Below the pieces are notes generated by a model. It searched no databases. It was given only the letters and a program-made list of their open reading frames with translations, and was not told where the DNA came from. A program made the translations under genes and the position numbers. DNA of 64,000 bases from Plantibacter sp. VKM Ac-2880 (GTDB taxonomy: Bacteria > Actinomycetota > Actinomycetes > Actinomycetales > Microbacteriaceae). Position 1 is the stretch's first letter. Each line of letters begins with the position of its first letter. Shown one piece after another: positions 4,082 through 58,050 of the stretch. The stretch spans positions 744,001 to 808,000 of the forward strand of contig NZ_JADKSJ010000001.1 in assembly GCF_015351235.1 (NCBI RefSeq). Reading direction: 5' to 3'.

Positions 4082-5140
4082 ATGGCCGAGACCGTCCGGA
4101 GTACCGATCGCACCGACGCACCCGACCCGGAGGACCGCCGCAAACCCGACGGGCCGACGGACCTCCGCAAGCCGTCCTGGTCGTTCGTCCTCAAGAAGAC
4201 CGTCCACGAGTTCACGTCCGACCAGTGCTTCGACATCGCTGCGGCGCTCACCTACTACGGTGTCCTCGCCCTGTTCCCCGGGCTCATCGCCGTCGTGTCG
4301 CTGCTCGGCGTGTTCGGGCAGAGCGAGGAGGCGCTCGAGCAGGTGCTCGGTATCGCGCAGAGCGTCGGCCCGGCCGAGGTGCTCGACACGCTCCGTGGGC
4401 CGCTCGAGTCGATCTCGTCGTCACCGGGGGCCGGCCTCGCCCTCCTCACCGGTGTCCTCGTCGCGCTCTGGTCCGCGTCCGGCTATGTCGGCGCGTTCAG
4501 CCGGGCCATGAACCGTATCTACGAGATCGACGAGGGACGGCCGTTCTGGAAGCTCCGACCGATGCAGCTGATCGTCACCGTGGTCGCGGTGGTGCTCATC
4601 CTCCTCGTCGCGTTGCTCCTCGTGGTCTCCGGTCCGGTCACGGAGGCCGTCGGCGACGCGCTCGGCCTCGGTGAGACGGTGCAGCTCGTGTGGTCGATCG
4701 CCAAGTGGCCGGTCATCGCCCTGGCGGTCGTCCTCATCATCGCCGTGCTGTACCACGCGACGCCGAACGCCAAACAGCCGAAGTTCCGCTGGCTGAGCCT
4801 CGGCGCGGTCATCGCGATCGTCGTGCTCGTGATCGCCTCGGGCGCGTTCGCCCTCTACCTCGCCACCTTCGCGAACTACGACAAGACCTACGGCTCCCTC
4901 GCCGGGGTGATCGTGTTCCTCCTGTGGTTGTGGATCGCGAACCTGGCACTGCTGTTCGGGGCCGAGTTCGACGCCGAACTCGAGCGGGGCCGAGAGTTGC
5001 AGGCCGGCATCCGGGCCGAGAAGCGGATCCAGTTGCCGCCGCGGGACACCCGGGCGAGCGACAAGGCCGAGCGGACCGAGTCGCGTGACGAAGCGGAGGG
5101 TCGCCGCATCCGGCAGCGTGCGGGGCGCGGAGGGGAGTAG
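4082..5140 (+). CDS. YihY/virulence factor BrkB family membrane protein
   Basis: 352 aa polytopic membrane protein. A cytoplasmic N-terminus is followed by the family signature A-A-A-L-T-Y-Y near residue 55 and about six transmembrane segments up to ~300; the tail is highly charged. The motif W-S-A-S-G-Y-V is typical. The start is the ATG preceded by AAGGAG; an earlier in-frame start would add a Pro-rich segment encoded by a low-complexity repeat and is less likely. Once annotated as RNase BN, the family is now regarded as membrane proteins of unknown role. A close paralogue lies at 34170-35249. Its stop lies in a hairpin shared with the convergent DUF6766 gene. Confidence 0.9.
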   Translation: MAETVRSTDRTDAPDPEDRRKPDGPTDLRKPSWSFVLKKTVHEFTSDQCFDIAAALTYYGVLALFPGLIAVVSLLGVFGQSEEALEQVLGIAQSVGPAEVLDTLRGPLESISSSPGAGLALLTGVLVALWSASGYVGAFSRAMNRIYEIDEGRPFWKLRPMQLIVTVVAVVLILLVALLLVVSGPVTEAVGDALGLGETVQLVWSIAKWPVIALAVVLIIAVLYHATPNAKQPKFRWLSLGAVIAIVVLVIASGAFALYLATFANYDKTYGSLAGVIVFLLWLWIANLALLFGAEFDAELERGRELQAGIRAEKRIQLPPRDTRASDKAERTESRDEAEGRRIRQRAGRGGE

Positions 5141-5158
5141 CCCGCTACTCCGCCTCCG
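5128..5158. terminator. Bidirectional terminator overlapping two stop codons
   Basis: Inverted repeat 5128-5140 / 5145-5158 (13-bp arms with one bulged base, 4-nt loop). The YihY stop codon lies in the left arm and the DUF6766 stop codon in the right arm, with only 4 nt between the two genes. It can serve as terminator on both strands. Confidence 0.65.
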
Positions 5159-5828
5159 TGCTCGTCTCGTCGTGCGGCGTCCCCACGGGCTTCGACTCCG
5201 ACGACCCCCGCTGACGCAGGTAGATCGAGAAGACCACCATGCACCCGACGGCGAGGAACTCCGACTGCCAGTTCTGCAGGGTCCGGTTCCAGAAGTCGGG
5301 GGAGGCGAGGTAGCCGAGGAGGTCGACCGGGGGTTGCCCGTGTTCCTGTTGCTCGGCGTTGTAGGTGACCCGTCCGGCGACCGCCTGGGCGGCCCATGAG
5401 GCGAGGAAGACGGCGCCCATGACGAGCAACAGCGAGTTCGAGTACAGCGTCCGCCGCCACCCGGCCACGCGCGCCCACTTCGGTGCGTCCGCTGGTGCGT
5501 GCTCACCGAGGAGTTGTTCCTCGTCGCTGCCGATTCCTTCGTCGCCAGGCTGTTTCGACTCGGGTGAGCCCCGCTGAACGAGCCACACGGTGGCGAGGAT
5601 GAAGAGGAAGAACTGCAGGAACTCCGACTGCCAGTTCTCGGCCACGTCGACGACGAACGCCGAGGACGTGACGAACTCGAGGAAGCCGACCGGCGCGAGT
5701 CCGTGGGAGCGCTGGTCGTCGTTGAACGCGGCGAGCCCGACGAGGGACTGGCCGAGGAGGGCGAGGGCGAAGATCGCGCCGAAGAAGATACTGAGGGCGT
5801 GGTCGCGGAGGTGTCGCATGGCGTTCAC
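5145..5828 (-). CDS. DUF6766 family membrane protein
   Basis: 227 aa with four hydrophobic segments (about 13-30, 70-87, 128-150 and 188-205). It is built as two similar halves: each has a G-Q-S/A-A-Q-x-V motif, then N-W-Q-S-E-F-L, a TM helix and Q-R-G-S-x-E-S-K. This internal duplication is typical of DUF6766; the function is unknown. The start is a GTG (5828), with an ATG three codons later. The GTG overlaps the TGA of a truncated copy of the same 5' end lying just upstream, so translation may depend on coupling. Confidence 0.85.
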   Translation of the reverse strand: MNAMRHLRDHALSIFFGAIFALALLGQSLVGLAAFNDDQRSHGLAPVGFLEFVTSSAFVVDVAENWQSEFLQFFLFILATVWLVQRGSPESKQPGDEGIGSDEEQLLGEHAPADAPKWARVAGWRRTLYSNSLLLVMGAVFLASWAAQAVAGRVTYNAEQQEHGQPPVDLLGYLASPDFWNRTLQNWQSEFLAVGCMVVFSIYLRQRGSSESKPVGTPHDETSTEAE

Positions 5829-5904
5829 CGATTCCAGATTCCTGTGGTGGACATGAGGGCGGTGCTCAGGGCGTGGTCGCGAAGGTGTCGCATGGCGTTC
5901 ACCG
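5791..5904 (-). repeat. Direct repeat duplicating the DUF6766 gene start
   Basis: Two 40-bp copies, 5791-5830 and 5865-5904, differ at only two positions and are offset by 74 bp. Each copy contains the GTG start and the first ~12 codons of the DUF6766 gene. The duplication probably arose by slippage or unequal exchange. Confidence 0.9.
5825..5902 (-). pseudogene. Truncated duplicate of the DUF6766 5' end (25-codon leader ORF)
   Basis: The frame starts with GTG (5902) and its first 13 residues (M-N-A-M-R-H-L-R-D-H-A-L-S) match the true gene. It then diverges and ends at TGA (5825-5827). That TGA overlaps the GTG of the intact gene (GTGA). Its own GTG overlaps the stop of the small membrane peptide upstream, again as GTGA. 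It may be a remnant, or it may now work as a translational-coupling leader. Confidence 0.7.
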
Positions 5905-5982
5905 GCCCGACAGCCCGATGGCGAACAGGTAGACCAGTCCGATCACGACGACGAATGCCCACGCGGTGAAGACGATTTTCAT
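5899..5982 (-). CDS. Small membrane peptide, 27 aa
   Basis: A 27-residue frame beginning M-K-I-V-F-T-A-W-A-F and made almost entirely of one transmembrane helix, ending L-S-G-R. It sits directly upstream of the DUF6766 leader duplicate, and its stop overlaps that GTG. Composition and coupling support a real small membrane protein. However, no good Shine-Dalgarno sequence precedes the ATG and no homologue is known to me. It could form one mRNA with the DUF6766 gene. Confidence 0.5.
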   Translation of the reverse strand: MKIVFTAWAFVVVIGLVYLFAIGLSGR

Positions 5983-6058
5983 GGCCGAGACACTACGCCG
6001 ATCCCCGGGCCGGTCGCCGCGCTTGCGATTCCCCTCGGAAGCGTGTGTGATTCGCCCT

Positions 6059-6085
6059 CCCTGGGAATGCCGACCCTGGGAATGC
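6059..6085 (+). repeat. 12-bp direct repeat upstream of SDR operon
   Basis: CCCTGGGAATGC occurs at 6059-6070 and 6074-6085, a 15-bp period. It lies 31 nt upstream of the putative -10 box of the SDR operon, a position suited to activator binding. No regulator is assigned. Confidence 0.5.
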
Positions 6086-6115
6086 AAGGGGCGGCGTCGA
6101 ACAGCCGACCTCCCC

Positions 6116-6202
6116 TAACGTGGCGTCATGCCCCAGACCATCGCAACCCCTCGAGTCCTCTCAGCTCCATGTTCCGCCGCCATCGAACGGTTCGTGCGAT
6201 GA
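6116..6202 (+). CDS. Leaderless upstream ORF (24 aa) coupled to SDR gene, with its -10 box
   Basis: TAACGT at 6116-6121 is followed after exactly 6 nt by ATG (6128), the leaderless spacing seen repeatedly in this window. The ORF runs 24 codons (M-P-Q-T-I-A-T-P-R-V...) and its TGA at 6200-6202 overlaps the ATG of the SDR gene (ATGA). It is probably a coupling leader that lets a leaderless transcript translate the SDR. The peptide has no recognisable function. The coding part is 6128-6202. Confidence 0.5.
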
Positions 6203-7197
6203 GCCGGGGTGTCGCAGTCGTCACGGGCGGTACGGCAGGGCTCGGCCGGGCGACGGTCCGTGAACTCGCGAAGCGTGGCTGGGACGTCGCCGTGCTGGCA
6301 CGCGGTGAGGACGGACTCGCGGCGACCGTCGCCGAGGTCGAGCAGGCCGGGCGACGAGCGCTGGCCGTGCCGACCGACGTGGCCGACCGTGAAGCGGTCG
6401 AACGTGCCGCCGATCGCGTCGAGACCGAGCTCGGACCCATCGAGCTGTGGGTCAACTGCGCCATGGTCGGCGTGTTCGGCGACTTCCTGACGACCGAGCC
6501 GAAGGACTTCGAACGCGCCGTCGCCGTCAACTTCTTCGGCTTCGTCAACGGCACGCGCGCAGCGCTCTCGCGCATGGTCCCGCGCGATCGCGGACACGTC
6601 ATCCAGGTGGGCTCGGCGCTCGCGCACCGCGGCATTCCGCTGCAGGCGGCGTACTGCGGGTCCAAGTTCGGTGCGCGCGGGTTCACCGAGTCCGTGACCG
6701 CGGAACTCATCCACGCCGGCAGTGCCGTCAAGCTCTCGACGGTCGACATGCCGGCGCTGAACACCATCCAGTTCAGCTGGGTGAAGTCGCAGCTGCCCGA
6801 GCACCCGCAGCCCGTGCCGCCGATCTACCAGCCCGAGGTGGGTGCCACCGCCATCGCCGACGTCGCCGACAAGCCGCGACGACGCACCTGGGTGGGGGAG
6901 TCCACCGTCGGTACCATCCTCGGCGACCGCTTCGCCGGTTCGTTCCTCGACTGGTTCCTCGCCAGGACGGGCTACTCGGGACAGCTCGCCCCCGACAAGG
7001 ACGACCCGCGCATGCCCGACAACGTCTACACGCCCGCCCCCGGCGACCACGGTGCTCGCGGGGTGTTCAGCGACAAGGCGCGCTCCTGGAGTCCGCAGAC
7101 CTGGGCGATCCGGCACCGTCCGGCCGTGTACGCGACCGCGGTGGGCGCCGTCGCAGCGGGTGTCGCCCTGGTGACCGGCGCGGCGAAGCGACGCTGA
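6199..7197 (+). CDS. SDR family oxidoreductase
   Basis: 332 aa classical short-chain dehydrogenase. The Rossmann motif T-G-G-T-A-G-L-G is near residues 8-15; the catalytic Y-C-G-S-K stands near 151-155, preceded by V-G-S-A-L. The C-terminal ~80 residues extend beyond a usual 250-aa SDR and end in a hydrophobic segment (A-V-G-A-V-A-A-G-V-A-L-V-T-G-A) and basic residues, so it is probably membrane-anchored. Start chosen at the ATG overlapping the upstream mini-ORF stop; earlier in-frame ATGs exist. It is followed within 17 nt by an FAD oxidoreductase and then an SRPBCC gene, probably one operon. Confidence 0.85.
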   Translation: MSRGVAVVTGGTAGLGRATVRELAKRGWDVAVLARGEDGLAATVAEVEQAGRRALAVPTDVADREAVERAADRVETELGPIELWVNCAMVGVFGDFLTTEPKDFERAVAVNFFGFVNGTRAALSRMVPRDRGHVIQVGSALAHRGIPLQAAYCGSKFGARGFTESVTAELIHAGSAVKLSTVDMPALNTIQFSWVKSQLPEHPQPVPPIYQPEVGATAIADVADKPRRRTWVGESTVGTILGDRFAGSFLDWFLARTGYSGQLAPDKDDPRMPDNVYTPAPGDHGARGVFSDKARSWSPQTWAIRHRPAVYATAVGAVAAGVALVTGAAKRR

Positions 7198-7214
7198 CCG
7201 TCGTGGGGGCAGGC

Positions 7215-8678
7215 ATGCGCAGGTCGACGGAGGAGTTCGATGCGGTGGTCGTCGGTGCCGGCCCGAACGGGCTCGCCGCGGCGGTGACCCTCGCGCGGGC
7301 CGGCCTGCACGTGCAGGTGGTGGAGCGGGGCGACACCATCGGCGGCGGGGCCAGGACCGCGGAACTCACCCTCCCGGGCTTCCACCACGACATCTGCTCG
7401 GCGGTCCACCCGATGGCGCTCGCTTCGGGGTTCTTCCGCTCCTTCGGCCTCGAACGCCGGATCGAGCTGATGGTGCCGGAGATCTCCTACGCGCACCCCC
7501 TCGACGACGGCCGCGCGGGTATCGCCTACCGCGACATCGACCGCACCGCCGAGGCGCTCGGCCGCGACGGACCGGCGTGGCGCTCGCTCATGGGGCCGCT
7601 CGCCGCGGACGCCGACCGCGTGTCGCAGTTCACCGGCGGCAAGCTGCTGCAGGTACCCCGTCACCCGGTCACGGTCGCCAGGTTCGGCCTGCGGGCGCTC
7701 GAGCAGGGGAGTCCCGCCTGGAACCTCCGGTTCCGCGAGGACACCGCCCCGGCGATGCTGAGCGGGGTGGCCGCGCACTCGATCCGGCCCATGCCGAGCC
7801 TCGCCACCTCGGCGGCGGCCCTGTCGCTCGGCGCCTACGCCCACGCCCGCGGCTGGCCGATCCCCATCGGCGGCAGCCAGGCGATCGTCGACGCGCTCGC
7901 CGCAGACCTCCTCGCCCACGGCGGCGAGATCGTCACCGGCACCGAGGTGCGCTCCATCGACGAGCTCCCGTCCGCGCGTGCGGTGCTGTTCGACACGACG
8001 CCGAAGGCGCTCGCCGAGATCGCCGGTTCCCGGCTCCCCGACACCTACCTCCGCCGCCTCTCCCGCTTCCGGTACGGCGACGGCGTCGCGAAGGTCGACT
8101 TCGCCCTGTCCGGTCCGGTCCCCTGGACGAACCCCGAACTCGCGAAGGCGGGGACCCTCCATCTGGGCGGGAGCCGGCCGGAGATCGCCGCGGCCGAGCG
8201 GGACGTCGCTCGTGGTCGGCACAGCGGATCGCCCTACGTCCTCATCTCGCAGCCCGCGGTCGGCGACCCGGGACGTGCGCCGGGCGATGCGCAGGTCCTC
8301 TGGGCGTACACGCACGTGCCGAGTGGCTCCGCGCTCGACCAGACGGAGGCGATCACCCGGCAGATCGAACGGTTCGCCCCGGGCTTCCGCGACGTGATCC
8401 TGACGTCCGCATCGATGACCGCTCGCGACATGGCGCGGTACAACCCGAACTACGTGCTCGGCGACATCGCCGCCGGTGCCGCGAGCTTCGCGCAGCTCGT
8501 CGCGAGACCGGTGCTGTCGAACGACCCGTGGCGGACGCCGACGCCCGGCATCTTCCTCTGCTCGTCCTCGACGCCACCCGGCCCAGGCGTCCACGGGCTG
8601 GCCGGGTGGCACGCCGCCCGCAGCGCGCTCCGCTCCGTCTTCGGGCGCGACCGGATGCCCTCGCTCGCTCCGGATTGA
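7215..8678 (+). CDS. NAD(P)/FAD-dependent oxidoreductase, phytoene-desaturase type
   Basis: 487 aa. The N-terminal dinucleotide-binding motif V-V-G-A-G-P-N-G-L-A-A-A (13-24) and V-E-R-G-D-T-I-G-G-G-A-R-T are typical of the amine oxidase/carotenoid desaturase superfamily. The C-terminal motif (S-S-T-P-P-G-P-G-V-H-G-L-A-G-W-H-A-A) is the second FAD contact of the CrtI-like NAD(P)/FAD group. No carotenoid genes lie beside it, so the substrate is unknown. Start ATG follows GGGGGCAGG; other upstream sequence in frame belongs to the SDR gene. Likely second gene of the SDR-FAD-SRPBCC operon. Confidence 0.85.
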   Translation: MRRSTEEFDAVVVGAGPNGLAAAVTLARAGLHVQVVERGDTIGGGARTAELTLPGFHHDICSAVHPMALASGFFRSFGLERRIELMVPEISYAHPLDDGRAGIAYRDIDRTAEALGRDGPAWRSLMGPLAADADRVSQFTGGKLLQVPRHPVTVARFGLRALEQGSPAWNLRFREDTAPAMLSGVAAHSIRPMPSLATSAAALSLGAYAHARGWPIPIGGSQAIVDALAADLLAHGGEIVTGTEVRSIDELPSARAVLFDTTPKALAEIAGSRLPDTYLRRLSRFRYGDGVAKVDFALSGPVPWTNPELAKAGTLHLGGSRPEIAAAERDVARGRHSGSPYVLISQPAVGDPGRAPGDAQVLWAYTHVPSGSALDQTEAITRQIERFAPGFRDVILTSASMTARDMARYNPNYVLGDIAAGAASFAQLVARPVLSNDPWRTPTPGIFLCSSSTPPGPGVHGLAGWHAARSALRSVFGRDRMPSLAPD

Positions 8679-14779: not shown

Positions 14780-15019
14780 CCTTCGACAAGCTCAGGGATC
14801 GAGAGTCTGCGGGACCGGGAGTGCTACGGCGGGGGACAGGGTGGCGCCCTTCGACAAGCTCGGGGATCAGCGTGTTCCGGGCGCACCTGGGCCGGTCACT
14901 GAGCCTGTCGAAGTGCGCACGACAACCCCTTCGGAAAGCTCAGGGGCCGAATCGTTCCCGACGGACCACGCCCGGTCACTGAGTTTGTCGAAGCGCGCAC
15001 GAGGAACCCTTCGACAGGG
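14780..15019. repeat. Cluster of palindromic REP-like elements
   Basis: At least five degenerate copies of a CTTCGACAAGCTCAGGGATC-type element in both orientations: about 14780-14800, 14847-14868, 14894-14913 (inverted), 14927-14946 and 14974-14993 (inverted), plus a partial copy at ~15007. Opposed copies can form cruciform or REP-type hairpins. This and the array at 16371 flank the DUF222-HNH gene. The 272 nt between the genes holds nothing else. Confidence 0.85.
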
Positions 15020-15030
15020 AACGGAAGTGC

Positions 15031-16299
15031 TTAGAACGGCGCGGGGTCTGGCGCTGTGCGGTGGTGTTTGCCGTCGGGTGTGGTCCAGTCGAGCACGCCG
15101 CCGGGGCCATGGTCGAGGTTCCAGCCCGGCAGGTGCTTCATCCGGTGGTGATGGCGGCAGAGGCAGGCGAGATTCCCGATGTCTGTCGTTCCGCCGTCTT
15201 GCCAGGCGACCGAGTGATCGAGGTCGCATGCTCTGGCGCGTCTCCCGCAGCCGGGTGCGCGACAGGTGCCGTCTCGGAGGCGCACCGCCCGCTGCAGGTC
15301 GGCGGGAACGCGATACTGGCCGCGGCCAACGGAGAGGACAGCGCCGGTTTCCGGTTGGACGAGGATCCGGGTCAGGCTGGGCGCGTTGACCGCGATGCGG
15401 GCTGCGGTCTCGGGATCGATCGGCCCGTACCCGTCGAGCGTTGCGGGTGCGTCGGAGACGCCGGCCATGCTGAGCGCGGGGACGGTGATCTGCACGGTCG
15501 GCTTAATGTGCTCCTGGACCTCGATCGGGTGCGGGAGGACGGGGTTCGAGGCAACGTCATCTGGGGTGACACCGGCGAGGGCCAGTGCCGCGAGGGCGTC
15601 GGCTTGGAGCTGGCCGCACGTGCGGGCGTCGCCGGCTTTGCGTGATTCGGCCGCCGCGGCCTCGAGGCGCTCGACGATGCCCTGCGCGATGGGCGCGGTG
15701 GTGAAGAGGTGGACCCATGCCATACCGTCCGAGGCGGGCTCGAACTCGACGCGGCGGTCCGCTTCGGAACGGACCGCGCGGGCGGTGATGGACTCCGGGT
15801 GGAGTCGCTCGCGGAGGTCTTTCGCGCGCTTCTTCAGGCGGGCGGCGGTCGATCGCTCGGCAAGGGGGAGCACCTCGGCGAGGAACGAAGCGCGACCGGC
15901 GGTGGGCACCTCGCGGAGTTGGTCGGTGATCGTGCGCGCGTGCCGGCCCGAGATGCGGCCAGTCTCGAGCGCGGCCAGGACGGTGGGCGCCTCGCTCACC
16001 AGCCGCTCGGCATCGTCCGTCGCCTGCAGGACCGTCCGCTCCGAAGAACGCGTCGCCATCGCGAGCATCGCGCACGTCGAGCGGCGCGACAGCGCGCGCC
16101 GCTCGGCTGGTGGATAGATCGCCGGGACGACGGCGTCCGCGAGCGCATCCGCATACGCGGCCGAGCGGGCGAGCAATCGCGCTTCACGCGCGTCGAGCAC
16201 GGCGCGCAGTCGACTGATCTCCGCGTACTCATCCGAGAACTCGGCGAGGCGCGCGGCGTATTCGTCGCTCGCGCGGGCCGCGGTGGGGGTCTCGGTCAT
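15031..16299 (-). CDS. DUF222 and HNH endonuclease domain protein
   Basis: 422 aa. An N-terminal DUF222 region (~20-320) includes R-S-S-E-R-T-V and G-R-I-S-G-R-H-A-R-T-I-T. A C-terminal HNH nuclease (~350-410) shows C-R-A-P-G-C, D-L-D-H-S-V-A-W, G-N-L-A-C-L-C-R-H-H-H and K-H. Such genes are repeated in Microbacteriaceae genomes and the substrate is unknown. The start (M-T-E-T-P) follows a TGGAG motif; the frame stays open further upstream only because it runs into REP repeats. The gene is isolated and flanked on both sides by REP-like elements. Confidence 0.88.
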   Translation of the reverse strand: MTETPTAARASDEYAARLAEFSDEYAEISRLRAVLDAREARLLARSAAYADALADAVVPAIYPPAERRALSRRSTCAMLAMATRSSERTVLQATDDAERLVSEAPTVLAALETGRISGRHARTITDQLREVPTAGRASFLAEVLPLAERSTAARLKKRAKDLRERLHPESITARAVRSEADRRVEFEPASDGMAWVHLFTTAPIAQGIVERLEAAAAESRKAGDARTCGQLQADALAALALAGVTPDDVASNPVLPHPIEVQEHIKPTVQITVPALSMAGVSDAPATLDGYGPIDPETAARIAVNAPSLTRILVQPETGAVLSVGRGQYRVPADLQRAVRLRDGTCRAPGCGRRARACDLDHSVAWQDGGTTDIGNLACLCRHHHRMKHLPGWNLDHGPGGVLDWTTPDGKHHRTAPDPAPF

Positions 16300-16370
16300 G
16301 ACTCCAGTCCACCATGGACCACTGACATTCCAGATGCTGAGCGGGGGCGGATGTGGAGGCATCTCTGTGA

Positions 16371-16640
16371 GCACTTCGACAAGCTCAGTGACCGGGGCTG
16401 GTTGGCGGGGTTTTGTCGGGTCCGGGGCTTGTCGTGCGGCGCACTTCGACAAGCTCAGTGACCGGGGCTGGTTGGCGGGGTTTTGTCGGGTCCGGGGCCT
16501 GTCGCGCGGAGCACTTCGACAAGCTCAGTGACCGGGGCTGGTCGGCGGGGTTCTGTCGGGTGGCGAGCCTGCCGCTCGGCGCACTTCGACAGGCTCAGTG
16601 ACCAGATGGGGCTCAGTGACCGGGGCTGGTTGGTGGGACT
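16371..16640. repeat. 70-bp tandem repeat array of REP-like units
   Basis: Units begin GCACTTCGACAAGCTCAGTG at 16371, 16441, 16511 and 16581, an exact 70-bp period. The first three are nearly complete, the fourth is truncated, and a further fragment follows at about 16611-16635. Each unit carries the palindromic CTTCGACAAGCTCAG core plus a G/T-rich arm (GGGGCTGGTTGGCGGGG). With flanks, the intergenic region 16300-16682 contains no gene. Confidence 0.92.
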
Positions 16641-25751: not shown

Positions 25752-25803
25752 GGCGCTGCCGCACCGGGGCGCCGCAGCACTGCATCCACTCGCTCGGACG
25801 GCG

Positions 25804-25868
25804 TGAAGCCGCTCCGATGGGCCACACGAAGCCCCTCCTGGTTCGTGCGGCCCATCGGAGCGGCTTCA
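25804..25868. terminator. Large bidirectional hairpin between GH3 and DUF7882 genes
   Basis: 27-bp arms (25804-25830 / 25842-25868) with one mismatch and an 11-nt loop. It lies between convergent genes, 52 nt after the GH3 stop and 19 nt from the DUF7882 stop. It could end transcription from both sides, and is longer than usual terminators, so a REP-like origin is possible. Confidence 0.8.
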
Positions 25869-25886
25869 TGCCGCGTGCACGGTCCG

Positions 25887-51445: not shown

Positions 51446-52585
51446 CTAGAGCGTGTTGCCGAGCTTGAAGCCCTGCGCCTCGTCGCCCTTGCGGGTGTAG
51501 GAGAAGCCGTCGGCACCGATGGTGACCTCGAGCTCAGAGTCGTCGGTGCGGGAGAGGACCGGCTTCGGCTCACCGTCGAGGTCGAGCACGAGCGAGGCGT
51601 CCGTGTACCAGCTCGGCACGACGGCGTTGCCCCACCAGTCGCGACGCTGGTTGTCGTGCACGTCCCACGTGACCACCGGGTTGTCAGGGTCGCCCGTGTA
51701 GTAGTCCTGCGTGTAGATCTCGATGCGGTGGCCGTCGGGGTCGCGGATGTACAGGTAGAACGCATTCGACACCCCATGACGACCAGGCCCACGCTCGATG
51801 ACGTCCGACATGCGCAGGGCGCCGAGCTTGTCGCAGATCGCGATGATGTTGTGCTTCTCGTGCGTCGCGAACGCCACGTGGTGCATGCGCGGGCCGTCGC
51901 CACCCGTCATCGCCGTGTCGTGCACGGTCGGCTTCCGCCGCATCCACGCGGCGTACGTGGTGCCGGCCTCGTCCTGGATGTCCTCCGTCACCCGGAACCC
52001 GAGGTCCTCCATGTGGGCGACCGCGCGGGGCACGTCCGGCGTCACCTGGTTGAAGTGGTCGAGCCGCACGAGTGCACCCGGCGTGTACAGCTCGTACCGC
52101 CATGCCAGACGCTCGACGTGCTCGACGTCGTAGAAGAACTCGATGGGGAACCCGAGCGGATCCTCGACCCGCACCGAGTCGCCGATCCCCCTCACGTACC
52201 CCTCCGCACGACGCTCCACGCGGCAGCCGAGCTCCGTGTAGAACGCGACCGCGCGATCGAGGTCCTCCGGGCTCCGCAACCGGTAGCTGAAGGCCGCGAC
52301 GGCCGCCACCGGACCCTGCCGCAGCACGAGGTTGTGGTGGATGAACTCCTCGAAACTCCGCAGGTAGACCGTGTGCTCGTCCTCCTCCGTCACCACGAGG
52401 TCGAGGACCTCGACGTAGAACTTCCGGCTCGCCGCGAGGTCCGTCACGACGATCTCCATGTACGCGCACCGCAGGATGTCCGGTGGCGTGGCGGTGGGCG
52501 TCGGGATCCGGTTCCCGGGCGCGGGGATCGGGTCGGTGTCGGTCACGACGGGCTCGGGGCCGGCAGGGGTGATGGGGTTCGACAT
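51446..52585 (-). CDS. hpaD: 3,4-dihydroxyphenylacetate 2,3-dioxygenase
   Basis: 379 aa extradiol dioxygenase of the two-domain VOC class, the type known from Brevibacterium (HPCD) and Arthrobacter (MndD). With a 22-residue offset, the HPCD metal ligands map to His177, His236 and Glu289, the acid-base His200 to His222, and Tyr257 to Tyr279; all are conserved. It opens the ring of homoprotocatechuate to 5-carboxymethyl-2-hydroxymuconate semialdehyde using Fe(II) or Mn(II). Last gene of the operon; a terminator follows. Confidence 0.93.
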   Translation of the reverse strand: MSNPITPAGPEPVVTDTDPIPAPGNRIPTPTATPPDILRCAYMEIVVTDLAASRKFYVEVLDLVVTEEDEHTVYLRSFEEFIHHNLVLRQGPVAAVAAFSYRLRSPEDLDRAVAFYTELGCRVERRAEGYVRGIGDSVRVEDPLGFPIEFFYDVEHVERLAWRYELYTPGALVRLDHFNQVTPDVPRAVAHMEDLGFRVTEDIQDEAGTTYAAWMRRKPTVHDTAMTGGDGPRMHHVAFATHEKHNIIAICDKLGALRMSDVIERGPGRHGVSNAFYLYIRDPDGHRIEIYTQDYYTGDPDNPVVTWDVHDNQRRDWWGNAVVPSWYTDASLVLDLDGEPKPVLSRTDDSELEVTIGADGFSYTRKGDEAQGFKLGNTL

Positions 52586-52637: not shown

Positions 52638-54152
52638 TCAGTGCGCGGGCTGCAGCGGCCCGCCCGTGCCGAAGCGCGGGGAGTGCGCCTGGTTGAGGGT
52701 GATGTGGACCGCCTGCTGGTCGGTGTAGAAGTCGATGGAGCGGTAGCCGCCCTCGTGCCCCAGCCCCGACGCCTTCACGCCGCCGAACGGGGTCCGCAGG
52801 TCGCGGACGTTGTTCGAGTTCAGCCACACCATCCCGGCCTGCACGTTCTGCGAGAAGGTGTGCGCACGCTTCAGGTCGTTCGTCCAGATGTAGGCCGCCA
52901 GCCCGTACTTCGTGTCGTTCGCGAGCGTGAGCGCCTCCTCGTCGGAGTCGAACGGCGTGATCGCCACGACCGGGCCGAAGATCTCCTCCTGGAAGATCCG
53001 TGCGGTGGGGGCGACGTCGGCGAACACGGTGGGTGCGACGTAGTTGCCGGTCGGGAAGCCCTCCGGCCGCCCGCCACCGGCGACGAGGCGGGCCTCGCCC
53101 TTGCCGATCTCCACGTAGCCCATGACCTTCTCGTAGTGCTCCGGGTGCACGAGGGCACCGACCTCGGTGGCTGGGTCGTTCGGGTGTCCGACGACGATGT
53201 TGCGAGCCCGCTCCGCGTAGCGCTCGACGAAGTCGTCGTACACACTGCGCTCGACGAGGATGCGGCTGCCCGCCGTGCAGCGCTCGCCGTTCAGGGAGAA
53301 GACGCCGAACACGGTCGCGTCGATCGCGTCGTCGAGGTCCGCGTCGGCGAACACGACCGCCGGCGACTTGCCGCCGAGCTCCATCGACAGCCCCTTCAGG
53401 AAGGGTGCGGCGTTCGCGAAGATGAGCTGACCGGTGCTGCTCTCGCCGGTGAAGGAGATGAGCGGCACGTCCGGGTGCTTCACGAGTGCGTCGCCCGCGT
53501 CCTCACCGAGGCCGTTCACCAGATTGAACACGCCGTCGGGCACGCCGGCTCCACGGAAGATGTCCGCCCAGAGGCTGGCCGACAGCGGCGTGAACTCGGC
53601 CGGCTTCAGCACGACCGTGTTGCCCGTCGCGAGCGCAGGGGCGAGTTTCCAGCTCTCGAGCATGAACGGCGTGTTCCACGGGGTGATGAGCCCGGCGACG
53701 CCGATCGGCTTGCGGTTCACGTAGTTCACCTGGCGACCGGGCACCTTGTAGGTGTCGTCGTGCTGGGCGACGATCAGGTCCGCGAAGAACCGGAAGTTCT
53801 CGGCGGCCCGCTTCGCCTGCCCGAGTGCCTGCGTGATCGGCAGGCCGGTGTCGAAGCTCTCCAGCTCCGCGAGTCGGGCGTCCTGGGCTTCGACGGCGTC
53901 GGCGACGCGGTGCAGGATGCGGCTCCGCTCGCGGGGGAGGAGCTTCGGCCATGGGCCTTCGTCGAAGGCGCGCTTGGCGGCCGCGACGGCGAGGTCGATG
54001 TCGGCCTGCTTGCCCGCAGCGGCCTGCACGTAGGTCTCGTTCGACACCGGGTCGAGGACGTCGAAGGTGTCGCCGTCGACCGAGTCGACGAACTCGCCGT
54101 CGATGAAGTGCCGGATACGGTCGGGCAGCGCTGCCGGAACGTGCTGGGTCAT
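52638..54152 (-). CDS. hpaE: 5-carboxymethyl-2-hydroxymuconate semialdehyde dehydrogenase
   Basis: 504 aa aldehyde dehydrogenase. P-W-N-T-P-F (~158-163), L-S-M-E-L-G-G-K-S-P with the general-base Glu near 257, and catalytic Cys in G-E-R-C-T-A-G-S near 291 are visible. The family plus position beside hpaD identify it as HpaE, which oxidises the ring-cleavage aldehyde with NAD+. Its ATG overlaps the TGA of the GntR gene (coupled). 52 nt separate it from hpaD. Confidence 0.92.
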   Translation of the reverse strand: MTQHVPAALPDRIRHFIDGEFVDSVDGDTFDVLDPVSNETYVQAAAGKQADIDLAVAAAKRAFDEGPWPKLLPRERSRILHRVADAVEAQDARLAELESFDTGLPITQALGQAKRAAENFRFFADLIVAQHDDTYKVPGRQVNYVNRKPIGVAGLITPWNTPFMLESWKLAPALATGNTVVLKPAEFTPLSASLWADIFRGAGVPDGVFNLVNGLGEDAGDALVKHPDVPLISFTGESSTGQLIFANAAPFLKGLSMELGGKSPAVVFADADLDDAIDATVFGVFSLNGERCTAGSRILVERSVYDDFVERYAERARNIVVGHPNDPATEVGALVHPEHYEKVMGYVEIGKGEARLVAGGGRPEGFPTGNYVAPTVFADVAPTARIFQEEIFGPVVAITPFDSDEEALTLANDTKYGLAAYIWTNDLKRAHTFSQNVQAGMVWLNSNNVRDLRTPFGGVKASGLGHEGGYRSIDFYTDQQAVHITLNQAHSPRFGTGGPLQPAH

Positions 54153-54877
54153 GAGTGGTTCCTCCGGTGGGTGGTGGATGACGACGATGACGACAACGGT
54201 GCCGCGCTCGGCGGCTTGTGGTCGGCCTGGTAGGCGAGCATCGCGTCGAGGGTCGCCGTGCGGTGGTCGCGCGCGGCGATCTCGATCTCGAGCGGCTGCG
54301 CTCCCGCGACGATGAGCTCGAGGATGCCGTCGTGTTCCGCGACGGACTCCCGCGCGCGGCCGGGCACGAAGCTGAACGTCGAATCGCGGAGCGCGTTGAG
54401 ACGGCTCCAACCGCGGTGCACGAGGTCGAGCACGTGGGGGTTCGGGCACTCCTCGAAGAGCACGGCGTGGAACTCGAGGTTGAGTGCGGTGAACGCGTGC
54501 GGGTCGAAGTCTTCGAGGGTGCGGCGCATGCGCTCGTTGATCTCGTGGGCGCGGGCCAGGTGGTCCTCGGTGAGGTAGGCGGCACTCATCGACGTCGCCG
54601 CGCCCTCGACGAGCGCGAGTGTCTGCATGGTGAAGAGGTACTCGGTCTCCTGCAGCAGCGCGACCTGCGCGCCGACGTTCCGCTCGAAGGTGACGAGCCC
54701 CTCCGCCTCGAGGCGGCGGATCGCCTCGCGCACGGGGACGACGCTGATGTCGAGCTCGCCGGCGATCTGCCCGAGCACCAAACGGTACCCGGGGACGAAC
54801 CGACCCTCGTCGATGCCCTCGCGGATGAAGCGGTAGGCCCGCTCGGACTTGCTCAGGGTGGGTCGCTCGGCGGTCAT
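54149..54877 (-). CDS. GntR family regulator (FCD type) of the hpa cluster
   Basis: 242 aa. Winged helix ~8-75 (L-D-I-S-V-V-P-V-R-E-A-I-R-R-L-E-A-E-G-L-V, residues ~43-63) and an FCD effector domain (~85-220, including E-F-H-A-V-L-F-E and E-H-D-G-I-L-E-L-I with metal-binding positions). A Ser-rich tail ends the protein. It is embedded in the operon with ATGA overlaps on both sides. It probably binds the ATNGTATACGAT palindromes at 56439 and 58136. In enterobacteria the hpa regulator is instead MarR-type HpaR. Confidence 0.9.
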   Translation of the reverse strand: MTAERPTLSKSERAYRFIREGIDEGRFVPGYRLVLGQIAGELDISVVPVREAIRRLEAEGLVTFERNVGAQVALLQETEYLFTMQTLALVEGAATSMSAAYLTEDHLARAHEINERMRRTLEDFDPHAFTALNLEFHAVLFEECPNPHVLDLVHRGWSRLNALRDSTFSFVPGRARESVAEHDGILELIVAGAQPLEIEIAARDHRTATLDAMLAYQADHKPPSAAPLSSSSSSTTHRRNHS

Positions 54878-56412
54878 CGGCCCTGCTCGCTCTCATATCG
54901 TGCGCGCCACTCGGCGTTCAGGGGGAAGAGGCCGTCGACCGCGGCGCCCTGGAGGACCTGCTCGGCGATCCAGGCGTCCTCGGCCTCCTGCGTGACGGCC
55001 TCGGCGGCGACCTCGGCGGCGAGCGCCCGGGGGATCGCGATGACCCCGTCACCGTCGCCGACGATCACGTCGCCCGGCAGGACGGTCGCGCCGCCGCAGG
55101 TGATGGCGACGTCGATCTCCCACGGCACGTGCCGACGCCCGAGGACGGAGGGGTGCGGGCCCTGCGAGAAGGTCGGGAGCGTGAAGCCTGCGACCTGTTC
55201 GGCGTCGCGGATCCCGCCGTCGGTGACCACCCCGGCCGCACCGCGCTGCTGGGCGCGCAGGGCGAGGACGTCGCCGACGGTGCCGGTCCCGCGTTCGCCT
55301 CGTGCCTCGATGACGATGACCTCGCCCGACTCGACCGTGTCGAAGAGGCGCTTCTGCGCGTTGAAGCCGTTGCCGCGTTCGGCGAAGAGGTCGGGCCGGT
55401 GGGCGACGAAGCGGAGCGTGCGGGCGACACCGACCATGCGCGTCCCGGGACGTGAGGCGTGCACGCCCTCCACGAAGACCTCGGTGTAGCCGCGTGCGCG
55501 GAGCTTGGCGCTGAGCGTCGCGGTCGAGACCGAGGCGAGCTGCTCGGCTACCGCAGGGTCGAGCGGTTCGGCCACCCGGGAGGTGGCCCCCTGGTCCCCG
55601 AGCGCTCCCTGGTCCCCGAGCGCGTTCTGGTCCCTGAGCTTGTCGAAGGGCCCGCCCGCCAGCTCGGCGTCGCCCCAGGCCTCGACGCGCTGCCGGTCGT
55701 CGACGGCCGGCTTCGAGCCGACGTCGCCGAAGGGCACGGTGCCTTCGACGACGGTGGTCACGAGTCGGCCGCTCGTCGGCGCGCCGGGAGCGGTCGGGGC
55801 ATCGACCTCGACCTCGACGACGTCGCCGGGGACGACGACGGAGGAACCGGCCGGCGTGCCCGTGAGGATCACGTCGCCGGGTTCGAGCGTCGTCAACTGC
55901 GAGAGGTCGGCGATGAGCTGGGCGAAGGGGAAGAGGAGGGTGCTGCTCGTGTCCTCTTGGACGAGCGCGCCGTTGACCCAGGTGCGGACGCGGAGGGCCG
56001 CGGGGTCGATGCGGTCGGCGGGGATGACGGCCGGGCCGAGGGGCGTGTAGCCGTCGCCGCCCTTGGACCGGAGGTTCGAGCCCTTGTCGGCGGTGCGTAG
56101 GTCGTAGAGGCCGAAGTCGTCGGCAGCGGTCACGCCGGACACGTGCTGCCAGGCGTCGTCGACCGTGACGCGCCGGGCCGCGGTGCCGATGATGATCGCG
56201 ATCTCACCCTCGAAGGCGAGGAGTTCCGCGCCGGCCGGCCGCTCGATGGTGGCGCCACTGCGGGCGACGGAGGACCAGGGCTTGAGGAAGTACGAGGGGT
56301 GCGCGGGGGTGCGTCCGCGTTGGGCGGCCCGCGAGGGGTAGTTGAGGTGCACGGCGATGATCTTGCCGCCCGCAGCGATCCGGAGATCGCCCTCGTCATC
56401 GTGGTTCGTCAT
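54874..56412 (-). CDS. FAH-family hydrolase/decarboxylase fused to an RraA-like domain
   Basis: 512 aa. Residues ~15-228 are a fumarylacetoacetate-hydrolase fold: metal ligands Glu68 and Glu70 (F-E-G-E) and Asp98/99 (A-A-D-D-F), then L-R-S-K-G-G-D-G and G-D-V-I-L-T-G-T-P-A-G. Residues ~285-500 are RraA-like, with G-D near 380, V-T-D-G-G-I-R-D (397-403) and G-D-V-I-V-G-D-G-D-G-V. The linker (254-277) is translated REP DNA. By position it should replace HpaG (OPET decarboxylase / isomerase); the RraA half may act as decarboxylase or aldolase. GAGGACAG precedes the ATG. ATGA overlap with gntR. Confidence 0.88.
   Translation of the reverse strand: MTNHDDEGDLRIAAGGKIIAVHLNYPSRAAQRGRTPAHPSYFLKPWSSVARSGATIERPAGAELLAFEGEIAIIIGTAARRVTVDDAWQHVSGVTAADDFGLYDLRTADKGSNLRSKGGDGYTPLGPAVIPADRIDPAALRVRTWVNGALVQEDTSSTLLFPFAQLIADLSQLTTLEPGDVILTGTPAGSSVVVPGDVVEVEVDAPTAPGAPTSGRLVTTVVEGTVPFGDVGSKPAVDDRQRVEAWGDAELAGGPFDKLRDQNALGDQGALGDQGATSRVAEPLDPAVAEQLASVSTATLSAKLRARGYTEVFVEGVHASRPGTRMVGVARTLRFVAHRPDLFAERGNGFNAQKRLFDTVESGEVIVIEARGERGTGTVGDVLALRAQQRGAAGVVTDGGIRDAEQVAGFTLPTFSQGPHPSVLGRRHVPWEIDVAITCGGATVLPGDVIVGDGDGVIAIPRALAAEVAAEAVTQEAEDAWIAEQVLQGAAVDGLFPLNAEWRARYESEQGR
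55591..55650. repeat. REP-like element and 18-bp tandem repeats inside FAH-RraA gene
   Basis: CCCTGAGCTTGTCGAAGGG (55632-55650) is the same element as in the 14.8-16.6 kb clusters. It is preceded by three 18-bp units starting CTGGTCCC at 55591, 55609 and 55627. Being a multiple of three, the array stays in frame and encodes six-residue repeats of the D-Q-x-A-L-G type. Confidence 0.85.
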
Positions 56413-56470: not shown

Positions 56471-57283
56471 TCAGTAACCGTCGCTGCGAGGAGTGGCACG
56501 ACGGCCGTCGATGAAGCGCTCAGCCAGGCCCTCTGAGGCCCGCGCGAGCAGCGAGACGTCGGCCCCGACGAGGACGAACGACGCACCGTGATCGAGGTAG
56601 TGCTCTGCCACGGCGGGGTCGAAGGCGTTCACGCCGGCCGGCTTCCCCGCGGCGGCAGCGGCGTCGAGCACTCGCTCGACGGCCGCGATCACCGTCGGGT
56701 GGCCCTGCTGGCCGAGGAGGCCCATCGAGGCCGAGAGGTCTGCCGGCCCGACGAACACCGCGTCGACACCATCCACCGCGAGGATCTCGTCCGCGTGCTC
56801 GACGGCGTCCACCGACTCGATCTGCACCGTCAGCGACACCGAACCGTTCGCCAGCGACAGGTAGTCGTCCACCCGGTTCCAGCGGGACGATCGGGCCAGG
56901 GCGCTGCCGACCCCGCGGACACCCTGTGGCGGGTAGCGCACCGCCCGGACGAGCTCGGCGGCCTGAGCGGCGGACTCGACCATGGGCACGATGAGGTTCT
57001 GGGCTCCGAGGTCGAGGACCTGCTTGATCACGACGGGATCGCCGAACGGCACCCGCACGAGCGGGCACACCGGGAACGCCGCGACGAGCTGCAGCTGCAG
57101 CTGGATGCTCTCGAGCGTGTTCGCGGAGTGCTCGCCGTCGATGAGGAGCAGGTCGAGGCCGCTGCCCGCGGCGATCTCCGCGGCGACCGGACTCCCCGAC
57201 ACCACCCACATGCCCACCAGGGGGCGGTCGGCGGTGCGCAGGCGCTCGCCGAACGTCGGCGGCAAGGTCATTCGAATCGGCAT
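56471..57283 (-). CDS. hpaI: HpcH/HpaI family aldolase (4-hydroxy-2-oxoheptanedioate aldolase)
   Basis: 270 aa. L-L-I-D-G-E-H-S-A-N near 45-54, conserved Arg in V-R-V-P near 73, E of V-Q-I-E-S near 150, and F-V-G-P-A-D-L-S near 172-179 are diagnostic of class II HpaI aldolases, which split 4-hydroxy-2-oxoheptanedioate into pyruvate and succinic semialdehyde with a divalent metal. Start 57283 has GGGAG 9 nt upstream and overlaps hpaH by 16 bp; ATG 57271 would give a 4-bp overlap instead. Confidence 0.92.
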   Translation of the reverse strand: MPIRMTLPPTFGERLRTADRPLVGMWVVSGSPVAAEIAAGSGLDLLLIDGEHSANTLESIQLQLQLVAAFPVCPLVRVPFGDPVVIKQVLDLGAQNLIVPMVESAAQAAELVRAVRYPPQGVRGVGSALARSSRWNRVDDYLSLANGSVSLTVQIESVDAVEHADEILAVDGVDAVFVGPADLSASMGLLGQQGHPTVIAAVERVLDAAAAAGKPAGVNAFDPAVAEHYLDHGASFVLVGADVSLLARASEGLAERFIDGRRATPRSDGY

Positions 57284-58050
57284 GTCACGGCTCCCAGTCC
57301 CTGGTACTCGGCGTGCACGGTGTCGCCGCGCTCGACCCACATCGGTCTCGTGAAGGACCCGGCGAGGATGATCTCCCCGGCTGCGAGGCTGCCGCCGTGC
57401 TGGGCGAGCTTGCCCACCAGCCACGAGACGCCGAGCGCAGGGTGCCCCAGGACGGCTCCAGCGACACCCGACTCCTCGATCGTCTGGTTGCGATAGAGGA
57501 GCGCGGACACCCAGCGGGGGTCGATCGCGTCGGGTCGGACGGGAGTGCCCCCGAGCACCATCGCCCCGAGTGCCGCGTTGTCGGCGATCGTGTCGACGAT
57601 CGTGCGGCCTTCCAATTCGATGTGGGAGTTGAGGACCTCGAGCGCCGGCACGACGTAGTCGGTCGCGTCGAGCACCTCGAAGATGGAGCAGCCGGGGCCC
57701 TGGAGTGGGCGGCCGAGGATGAAGGCGAGTTCGACCTCCACCCGCACGTTCGAGTAGGCGTCGAAGTCGAGGGTGGCGCCGGAGTCGAACACCTGGTCGT
57801 CGAAGATCACGCCGTAGTCGGGCTCGGTGATCCCGGTGGCCTGCTGCATCGCCTTGGAAGTGAGGCCGATCTTGTGGCCGACGACGTGGTGTCCCGCGGC
57901 GATCCGGCTCTCGGCCCAGAGTGCCTGGACGGCGTAGGAGTCCTCGATCCCCATGTCGGGGTGGCGGGCGGTGAGGAGCGGGATGATGCTCCGCTCGTCG
58001 TGGGCGGTAGCCAGCTCGGCGGCGATCGCCCGGCGTTCGTGATCGTGCAT
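57268..58050 (-). CDS. hpaH: 2-oxohept-4-ene-1,7-dioate hydratase
   Basis: 260 aa, usual HpaH/MhpD length. G-H-K-I-G-L-T-S-K-A-M near 58-68, V-R-V-E-V-E-L-A-F-I-L near 102-112 with the metal-binding Glu pair, and D-N-A-A-L-G-A-M-V-L-G-G near 159-170. It adds water to the dienoate before the HpaI aldolase step. First gene of the leftward hpa transcription. GAGGACGGG upstream of the ATG; an in-frame ATG five codons earlier is possible. Confidence 0.92.
   Translation of the reverse strand: MHDHERRAIAAELATAHDERSIIPLLTARHPDMGIEDSYAVQALWAESRIAAGHHVVGHKIGLTSKAMQQATGITEPDYGVIFDDQVFDSGATLDFDAYSNVRVEVELAFILGRPLQGPGCSIFEVLDATDYVVPALEVLNSHIELEGRTIVDTIADNAALGAMVLGGTPVRPDAIDPRWVSALLYRNQTIEESGVAGAVLGHPALGVSWLVGKLAQHGGSLAAGEIILAGSFTRPMWVERGDTVHAEYQGLGAVTCRFE

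Follow-up and report, generated by a model that had tools for sequence, protein, structure and literature searches.

Passages of PMC3733652 describe REPs that lie within genes, including RPE-4 and RPE-6 of Rickettsia, and stress genes of DNA synthesis and repair as their hosts. The same passages leave open what mobilises REPs that have no dedicated transposase. The enzymes and nucleases relevant to the present locus also have described counterparts. In the excerpts of PMC3053370 that we draw on, the hpa cluster of Burkholderia xenovorans carries separate hpaG1 and hpaG2 genes. According to excerpts of PMC5065237, an HMG/CHA aldolase with additional oxaloacetate decarboxylase activity is crippled by the substitution R123K. 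REP13E12, HNH and DUF222 are named as repetitive in mycobacteria in the part of PMC10589994 considered here.

The window, a stretch of 64,000 nucleotides of a Plantibacter genome, contains a gene in which an FAH half and an RraA half are joined by a linker encoded in part by repeat DNA. This locus offers a clean natural case of intergenic repeat DNA turned into protein sequence, with both states present within one genus. The capture of a mobile-looking repeat by a linker that already existed is well supported. The same repeat family surrounds DUF222-HNH genes, and this link may matter more. A repeat family for which no RAYT was detected shares its places, and its presence or absence at one site, with a nuclease gene, which makes that gene a testable candidate.

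The FAH-RraA gene and its hpa cluster

The gene, its domains and its neighbours are as follows.

54874..56412, minus strand: FAH-RraA fusion gene, 512 aa, NF009399/PRK12764 family (open reading frame, domain and family profiles)
55750..56364, minus strand: FAH domain PF01557, residues 17-221 (profile match; alignment of 22 sequences)
55039..55524, minus strand: RraA domain PF03737, residues 297-458 (profile match; alignment of 22 sequences)
51446..52585, minus strand: HpaD, 3,4-dihydroxyphenylacetate 2,3-dioxygenase (TIGR02295, above cut-off)
52638..54152, minus strand: gene between the HpaD and GntR/FCD genes
54149..54877, minus strand: GntR/FCD regulator adjoining the fusion gene (domain match)
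56471..57283, minus strand: HpaI-like aldolase (TIGR02311 best match, 302.9 bits, below the cut-off of 368.8)
57268..58050, minus strand: HpaH-like hydratase (TIGR02312 best match, 329.1 bits, below the cut-off of 351.5)

The FAH-RraA fusion is an already named NCBIfam equivalog family. The protein scores 793.9 bits with the NF009399 profile, whose cut-off is 444, and residues 11-509 correspond to model positions 17-493 of 501. An alignment of 22 sequences, made up of the window protein and 21 relatives from the 32 named loci, revealed invariant residues in both halves. E68, E70, D99 and K117 are invariant in the FAH half; we take the first three to be its metal site. In the RraA half, G380, D381, R402 and D403 are invariant. 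We equate R402 with Arg-123 of HMG/CHA aldolase on the strength of the motif and general knowledge of these enzymes, not of a structure, and the role of the neighbouring Asp is assumed in the same way. The catalytic Arg with an adjacent Asp, the mark of an RraA of the HMG/CHA aldolase type, is present as R402 D403 in all 22 sequences.

The fusion gene belongs to a cluster with HpaD, HpaE, the GntR regulator and the HpaI- and HpaH-like genes. Among the 32 named loci, some of which end at contig ends, the RraA half was found in 32, HpaD and HpaE each in 31, GntR in 29, and HpaI and HpaH each in 28. The largest gap between neighbouring cluster matches is 324 bases, except in L061, L062, L064, L084, L085 and L089, a group with gaps of 773-980 bases; such gaps in L061, L062, L064 and L084 are the site of the FAH half. 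The clusters leave little room for HpaF. A search for PF02962 (HpaF) is a weak test of its absence, since the profile matched 0/14 control genomes. With the FAH half as query (E 1e-3, up to 6 kb of flank, some flanks cut by contig ends), none of the 32 loci showed a second FAH-type match outside the fusion.

Among solved structures, E. coli HpaG (1gtt) gave the best alignment to the FAH half, through its C-terminal half. The HpaG profiles stay below their cut-offs (TIGR02303, 147.7 against 276.4; TIGR02305, 108.5 against 228.65; NF011750, 131.9 against 811). It is plausible that the RraA half supplies one HpaG activity, as the first-pass annotation had proposed. The idea fits the cluster because no further FAH match was found there and because the FAH half is nearest to the C-terminal half of HpaG. 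The FAH half would perform one HpaG step and the RraA half, a predicted metal-dependent 2-oxo-acid enzyme, another. A literature search, mostly of journals outside subscription, returned nothing on RraA together with hydroxyphenylacetate.

One locus departs from the common arrangement. In Demequina gelatinilytica (L091, positions 4911-8266), RraA neighbours HpaH and HpaI and an FAH half was not found, indicating that the halves can live apart.

Repeat DNA in the linker

The linker DNA reads CCC TTC GAC AAG CTC AGG GAC CAG AAC GCG CTC GGG GAC CAG GGA GCG CTC GGG GAC CAG GGG GCC. Within it, CTTCGACAAGCTCAGKGACC occurs without a mismatch, and 18-bp units come after it.

55629..55648, minus strand: REP-like repeat core CTTCGACAAGCTCAGGGACC, exact 20-mer, in frame within PFDKLRDQ (genome copies and shuffles)
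55589..55639, minus strand: 18-bp tandem units, 2.8 copies, 87% matches, consisting of the repeat end and trailing half-units CTCGGGGACCAG

Between shared anchors the linker has 47 codons (141 nt), compared with 33 (99 nt) in the Plantibacter genomes that lack the repeat, so that the repeat form brings a net gain of 14 residues. The first-pass annotation had read the gene as one open reading frame whose linker contained about 24 residues encoded by a repeat and three in-frame 18-bp units, the frame remaining unbroken. This description holds. The frame from 54874 to 56412 is intact, and both domains are found in it. Residues ~256-280, about 25 in all, are unlike the repeat-free form, and the count of three units is correct provided that the end of the repeat itself is taken as the first of the 2.8 copies measured. 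The linker is open in 7/7 Plantibacter genomes, which rules out a frame break or an assembly error at the repeat, and its DNA is that of a mostly intergenic family.

At up to two mismatches, this family has 415 copies in the present genome, and the reversed pattern has none. The repeat origin of the linker rests on the match to this family. The number of copies ranges from 213 to 656 per genome in 7/7 Plantibacter. A wider search of 199 genomes from the bacterial family gave any match in 50, mostly with few copies each. High copy numbers are confined to a few genera (629, 391 and 505 copies in genomes of g92; 37, 396 and 84 in g98; 117 and 0 in g22).

The positions of the copies were analysed in a sample of 464 kb, comprising the window and 20 stretches of 20 kb from two contigs. 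Some stretches were chosen at known repeats, which biases the density of copies and should change the split between genes and gaps little. Genes were called with a simple hexamer scorer and occupy ~91% of the sampled bases. Of the 69 copies in this sample, 61 are intergenic, four are at gene edges and four are within predicted genes. Of the last four, two fall within the 3' tail of a DUF222 gene; a third lies within 14 codons of a doubtful predicted start that has an alternative start downstream. The fourth, in the FAH-RraA linker, is the only one clearly within a gene. In the window itself, all eight other copies found are intergenic, in line with the earlier description of the family as otherwise intergenic here.

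The family has the properties of REPs, being an imperfect palindrome of 20-40 bp with a high copy number and a mostly intergenic location. Base -1 covaries with base 16 (C:G in 47 copies, A:T in 18, other pairs in 4; n=69), which is the mark of a palindrome. Folding of four single-copy stretches gave none better than shuffles. Trailing half-units follow 12/69 copies at a spacing of 18-22 bases, and only 3/12, the linker's own included, are spaced at 18, so the family as a whole does not keep to 18 bases. The covarying arms and the intergenic arrays make 'REP' a reasonable working name. Visual inspection of the majority consensus from the 69 copies showed no GTAG/CGTC tag. RAYT (Y1_Tnp, PF01797) was found in 0/20 genomes, including 0/7 Plantibacter, with a search that matched 5/14 known genomes as a control. 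Rfam gave no match above the gathering score over the repeat arrays of the window. A text search of the literature, mostly of journals outside subscription, returned nothing for a 15-mer of the repeat and, for a 12-mer, matches unrelated by title. Elsewhere in the window, an inverted repeat at 25799-25873, with 32-base arms that are 94% complementary and 11 bases apart, is perhaps a terminator-like hairpin.

The fusion is widespread and the repeat in its linker is not. Some match to the fusion exists in 59/60 related genomes, mostly to single domains. Near full-length matches occur at 15 places in the 60 genomes, seven in Plantibacter and eight outside the genus. The repeat is present in the linker of 4/7 Plantibacter, at the same codon position and in the same orientation, followed by two trailing units in G000 and G002, three in G003 and one in G004. 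In G001, G005 and G006 the linker is PAPAEPPTAASPAE or a one-residue variant of it, shorter and free of the repeat. Outside the genus, 16 rows of the comparison (L008-L023) have both halves in one frame, and all lack the repeat. Among the named non-Plantibacter loci, 28/29 are fusions without the repeat; the 29th, L091, is the one without an FAH half. Fusions free of the repeat occur in Nocardia, Microbispora, Sphaerimonospora and Microbacterium, and in the hpa clusters of other actinobacteria the linkers are likewise repeat-free and variable in length. The repeat peptide was absent from the linker position in all examined relatives outside the genus. The DKLR of L088 belongs to a stretch immediately ahead of the RraA domain that most relatives share (xKL or similar), and not to the repeat's place. 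With a repeat in frame that the gene's relatives do not have, the window gene represents the Rickettsia RPE kind.

The linker appears to be under loose constraint. Between G000 and G002, 7/34 of its residues differ, compared with 6% over the whole protein. In the compared segments, the spacer ranges from 35 to 127 residues, with the maximum in Microbacterium. The Microbacterium linkers of L092, L077 and L078 are enlarged by other sequence; in L092 this is clearly a tandem duplication, and the repeat is not part of it.

We consider it very probable that FAH-RraA is an old fusion into whose spacer a REP-like repeat landed. The spacer between the halves would accept nearly any sequence. A high-copy repeat with its trailing half-unit would then have entered this spacer in the Plantibacter lineage, presumably as a single and neutral insertion, and would have been retained because it added whole codons and no stop. 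The number of trailing half-units would subsequently have shifted in 18-bp (6-codon) steps. The protein would have kept working throughout, both halves together performing the HpaF/HpaG steps of homoprotocatechuate breakdown. The observations that carry this history are the identity of the repeat, the open frame, the relatives that lack it, the variation in unit number and the rarity of copies inside genes.

The alternative is two separate entries of the repeat into the linker, one in the line of G000 and G002 and the other in that of G003 and G004. The group of G001 and G003-G006 has 3/5 genomes without the repeat, and its gene tree is poorly resolved (sequences 95.7-96.7% identical here; supports 46, 56 and 73), so that the tree does not distinguish one gain followed by loss from two gains at one place. 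A family this abundant across the genus would also offer many chances of entry. However, the two lines share the codon position, the orientation and the kind of trailing 18-bp units, and a parallel hit is improbable when one of the 69 sampled copies is clearly in a gene. The shared place, orientation and trailing units favour one insertion into an existing spacer with later loss, and double entry is unlikely.

It is more doubtful still that the repeat DNA was kept for work in the transcript or the protein, for example by forming an RNA hairpin at which ribosomes slow down between the two domains. The genome-wide covariation of the arms would suit such a role, but the linker copy folds no better than shuffles on either strand (z 0.58 and 0.21). 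The unit is also absent from 3/7 congeners and from the outside relatives examined, and its residues change fast.

A chance resemblance arising from a GC-rich codon string is highly improbable. The match often survives synonymous shuffles that preserve the peptide (165 matches at up to two mismatches, four of them exact, in 300), and codon choice is not evidence for a repeat origin because the peptide itself dictates most of the DNA. Shuffling the codons of the gene, however, gave one match at up to two mismatches in 300, where the real gene holds an exact copy; moreover, the family pattern extends to the base preceding the core and to the trailing half-unit, and the outside relatives lack the peptide at the linker position. 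The first-pass annotation had also suggested that the repeat may have taken part in joining two genes and that alignment with related hpa clusters would tell; the repeat lies exactly between the two halves, but the alignment, with the repeat-free fusion in three Plantibacter genomes, in the 16 outside rows and in all but one of the named outside loci, contradicts such a role so consistently that, unless all of those fusions arose independently, it deserves almost no credence; the repeat did not create the fusion.

DUF222-HNH genes beside the repeat

Most copies of the repeat in the window flank another gene.

15031..16299, minus strand: DUF222-HNH gene (PF02720 and PF01844), candidate companion of the repeat family
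14781..14993, both strands: repeat copies on one flank of the gene, at 14781 (plus), 14849 (plus), 14894 (minus) and 14974 (minus)
16374..16603, plus strand: repeat copies on the other flank, four at 70-bp spacing

We take this gene to be of the '13E12' type. Searches of the window protein against NCBIfam and PADLOC gave no match at E 0.01. Units like that at 14781-16603 are dispersed through Plantibacter genomes, and the likeness between them often stops at the repeats (in the window, at 14847 and 16395). The seven genomes contain 111 DUF222 matches, 13-20 per genome, and 30 were taken as loci. A repeat lies within 1.5 kb of the DUF222 match in 29/30. Leaving aside L132, which is at a contig end, 28/29 loci have the repeat, 26/29 have it on both sides, and together they have 229 copies, a mean of 7.9. 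Of 152 control genes, 32 have any repeat and six have it on both sides (four of these six are themselves DUF222 genes), with a mean of 0.59; all the controls were drawn from G000, and the DUF222 loci represent seven genomes that differ in repeat density. In the 464-kb sample, 31/69 copies lie within 1.5 kb of 4/5 DUF222 genes, a zone that covers ~4% of the bases; the majority, 38/69, are not near a DUF222 gene. The fifth sampled gene, L097, has no repeat within 1.5 kb.

The association extends to some other genera. In G027, 8/9 DUF222 loci have copies, four of them on both sides, with 25 copies observed against 0.9 expected. Across seven further repeat-bearing genomes, copies are present at 17/30 loci taken from 163 matches. 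All 14 loci of genus g92 have copies, 12 of them on both sides, and in g98 and g59 together only 3/16 do (G167 2/4, G218 0/4, G195 1/4, G066 0/4). An association in every repeat-bearing genus can therefore be rejected on the counts from g98 and g59.

The nearest copy mostly points outward from the gene. In Plantibacter, the left one is on the minus strand in 22/27 cases and the right one on the plus strand in 19/27; the corresponding counts are 13/14 and 12/12 in g92, and 5/6 and 6/6 in G027. In this respect the copies resemble terminal inverted repeats. The flanks were also compared with each other. The comparison does not support shared flanking repeats around DUF222-HNH genes in every genus, as the flanks of 23/24 loci from other genera share no exact match of at least 16 bases. 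This flank test is crude, since in Plantibacter 20/29 loci gave a direct and 6/29 an inverted match, and among mismatched pairs the figures were 126 and 186 out of 400. The flanks of L165, a DUF222 gene from another family, share a 75-base direct match, unlike those of the other 23 loci.

The gene and the repeats are also present or absent together. At an intergenic site, G000:C1:983.9-986.1 kb, both occur in G000, G002, G004 and G005 (L190-L193), and the same site is empty of both in G001, G003 and G006 (L187-L189), in a search of 901 bases at up to three mismatches. Two other sites appear occupied in 7/7 genomes, one of them across contig ends in G006. In the L099 region of G001, G003 and G006, the DUF222 gene is absent and about 3.4 kb lie between query positions 987 and 1056.

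These data amount to association and joint presence and are not proof of movement, as a joint deletion would look alike. The DUF222-HNH element is a candidate source of the repeat. The repeat may be the end sequence of a mobile element of the '13E12' type, a reading that we offer tentatively. In several genera of Microbacteriaceae, the nuclease would then serve this REP family as RAYT serves classical REPs, spreading copies between genes and rarely into proteins such as FAH-RraA. Among the titles, abstract openings and passages searched, mostly from journals outside subscription, we found no report of DUF222-HNH genes amid short-repeat arrays.

Comparison with known systems

The capture of a repeat within a gene is a kind of event already known from the passages of PMC3733652 cited above. 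Like RPE-4 and RPE-6 of Rickettsia as presented there, the Plantibacter repeat is short, palindromic and mostly intergenic, and lies in frame in a protein gene. Unlike the cases in those passages, it is actinobacterial and resides in a catabolic gene, its genomes yielded no RAYT and its consensus no visible GTAG/CGTC. A further difference from them is that the trailing units vary by 18-bp steps between Plantibacter species.

The fusion protein matches NF009399/PRK12764 over its full length and differs by the residues that repeat DNA encodes in the linker of the window protein. It resembles E. coli HpaG/HpcE (1gtt, 1i7o) in that its FAH half aligns best to the C-terminal half of that protein, residues 223-414, with a score of 190.8 bits over the chain, and in having the same pathway neighbours. 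Unlike HpaG/HpcE, its other half is RraA-like and not a second FAH, and it scores below the HpaG cut-offs. Finally, a DUF222-HNH gene as a repeated element recalls REP13E12 of Mycobacterium. In contrast to REP13E12, as far as the part of PMC10589994 considered here describes it, the Plantibacter genes stand amid arrays of a short repeat, of which hundreds more copies exist elsewhere.
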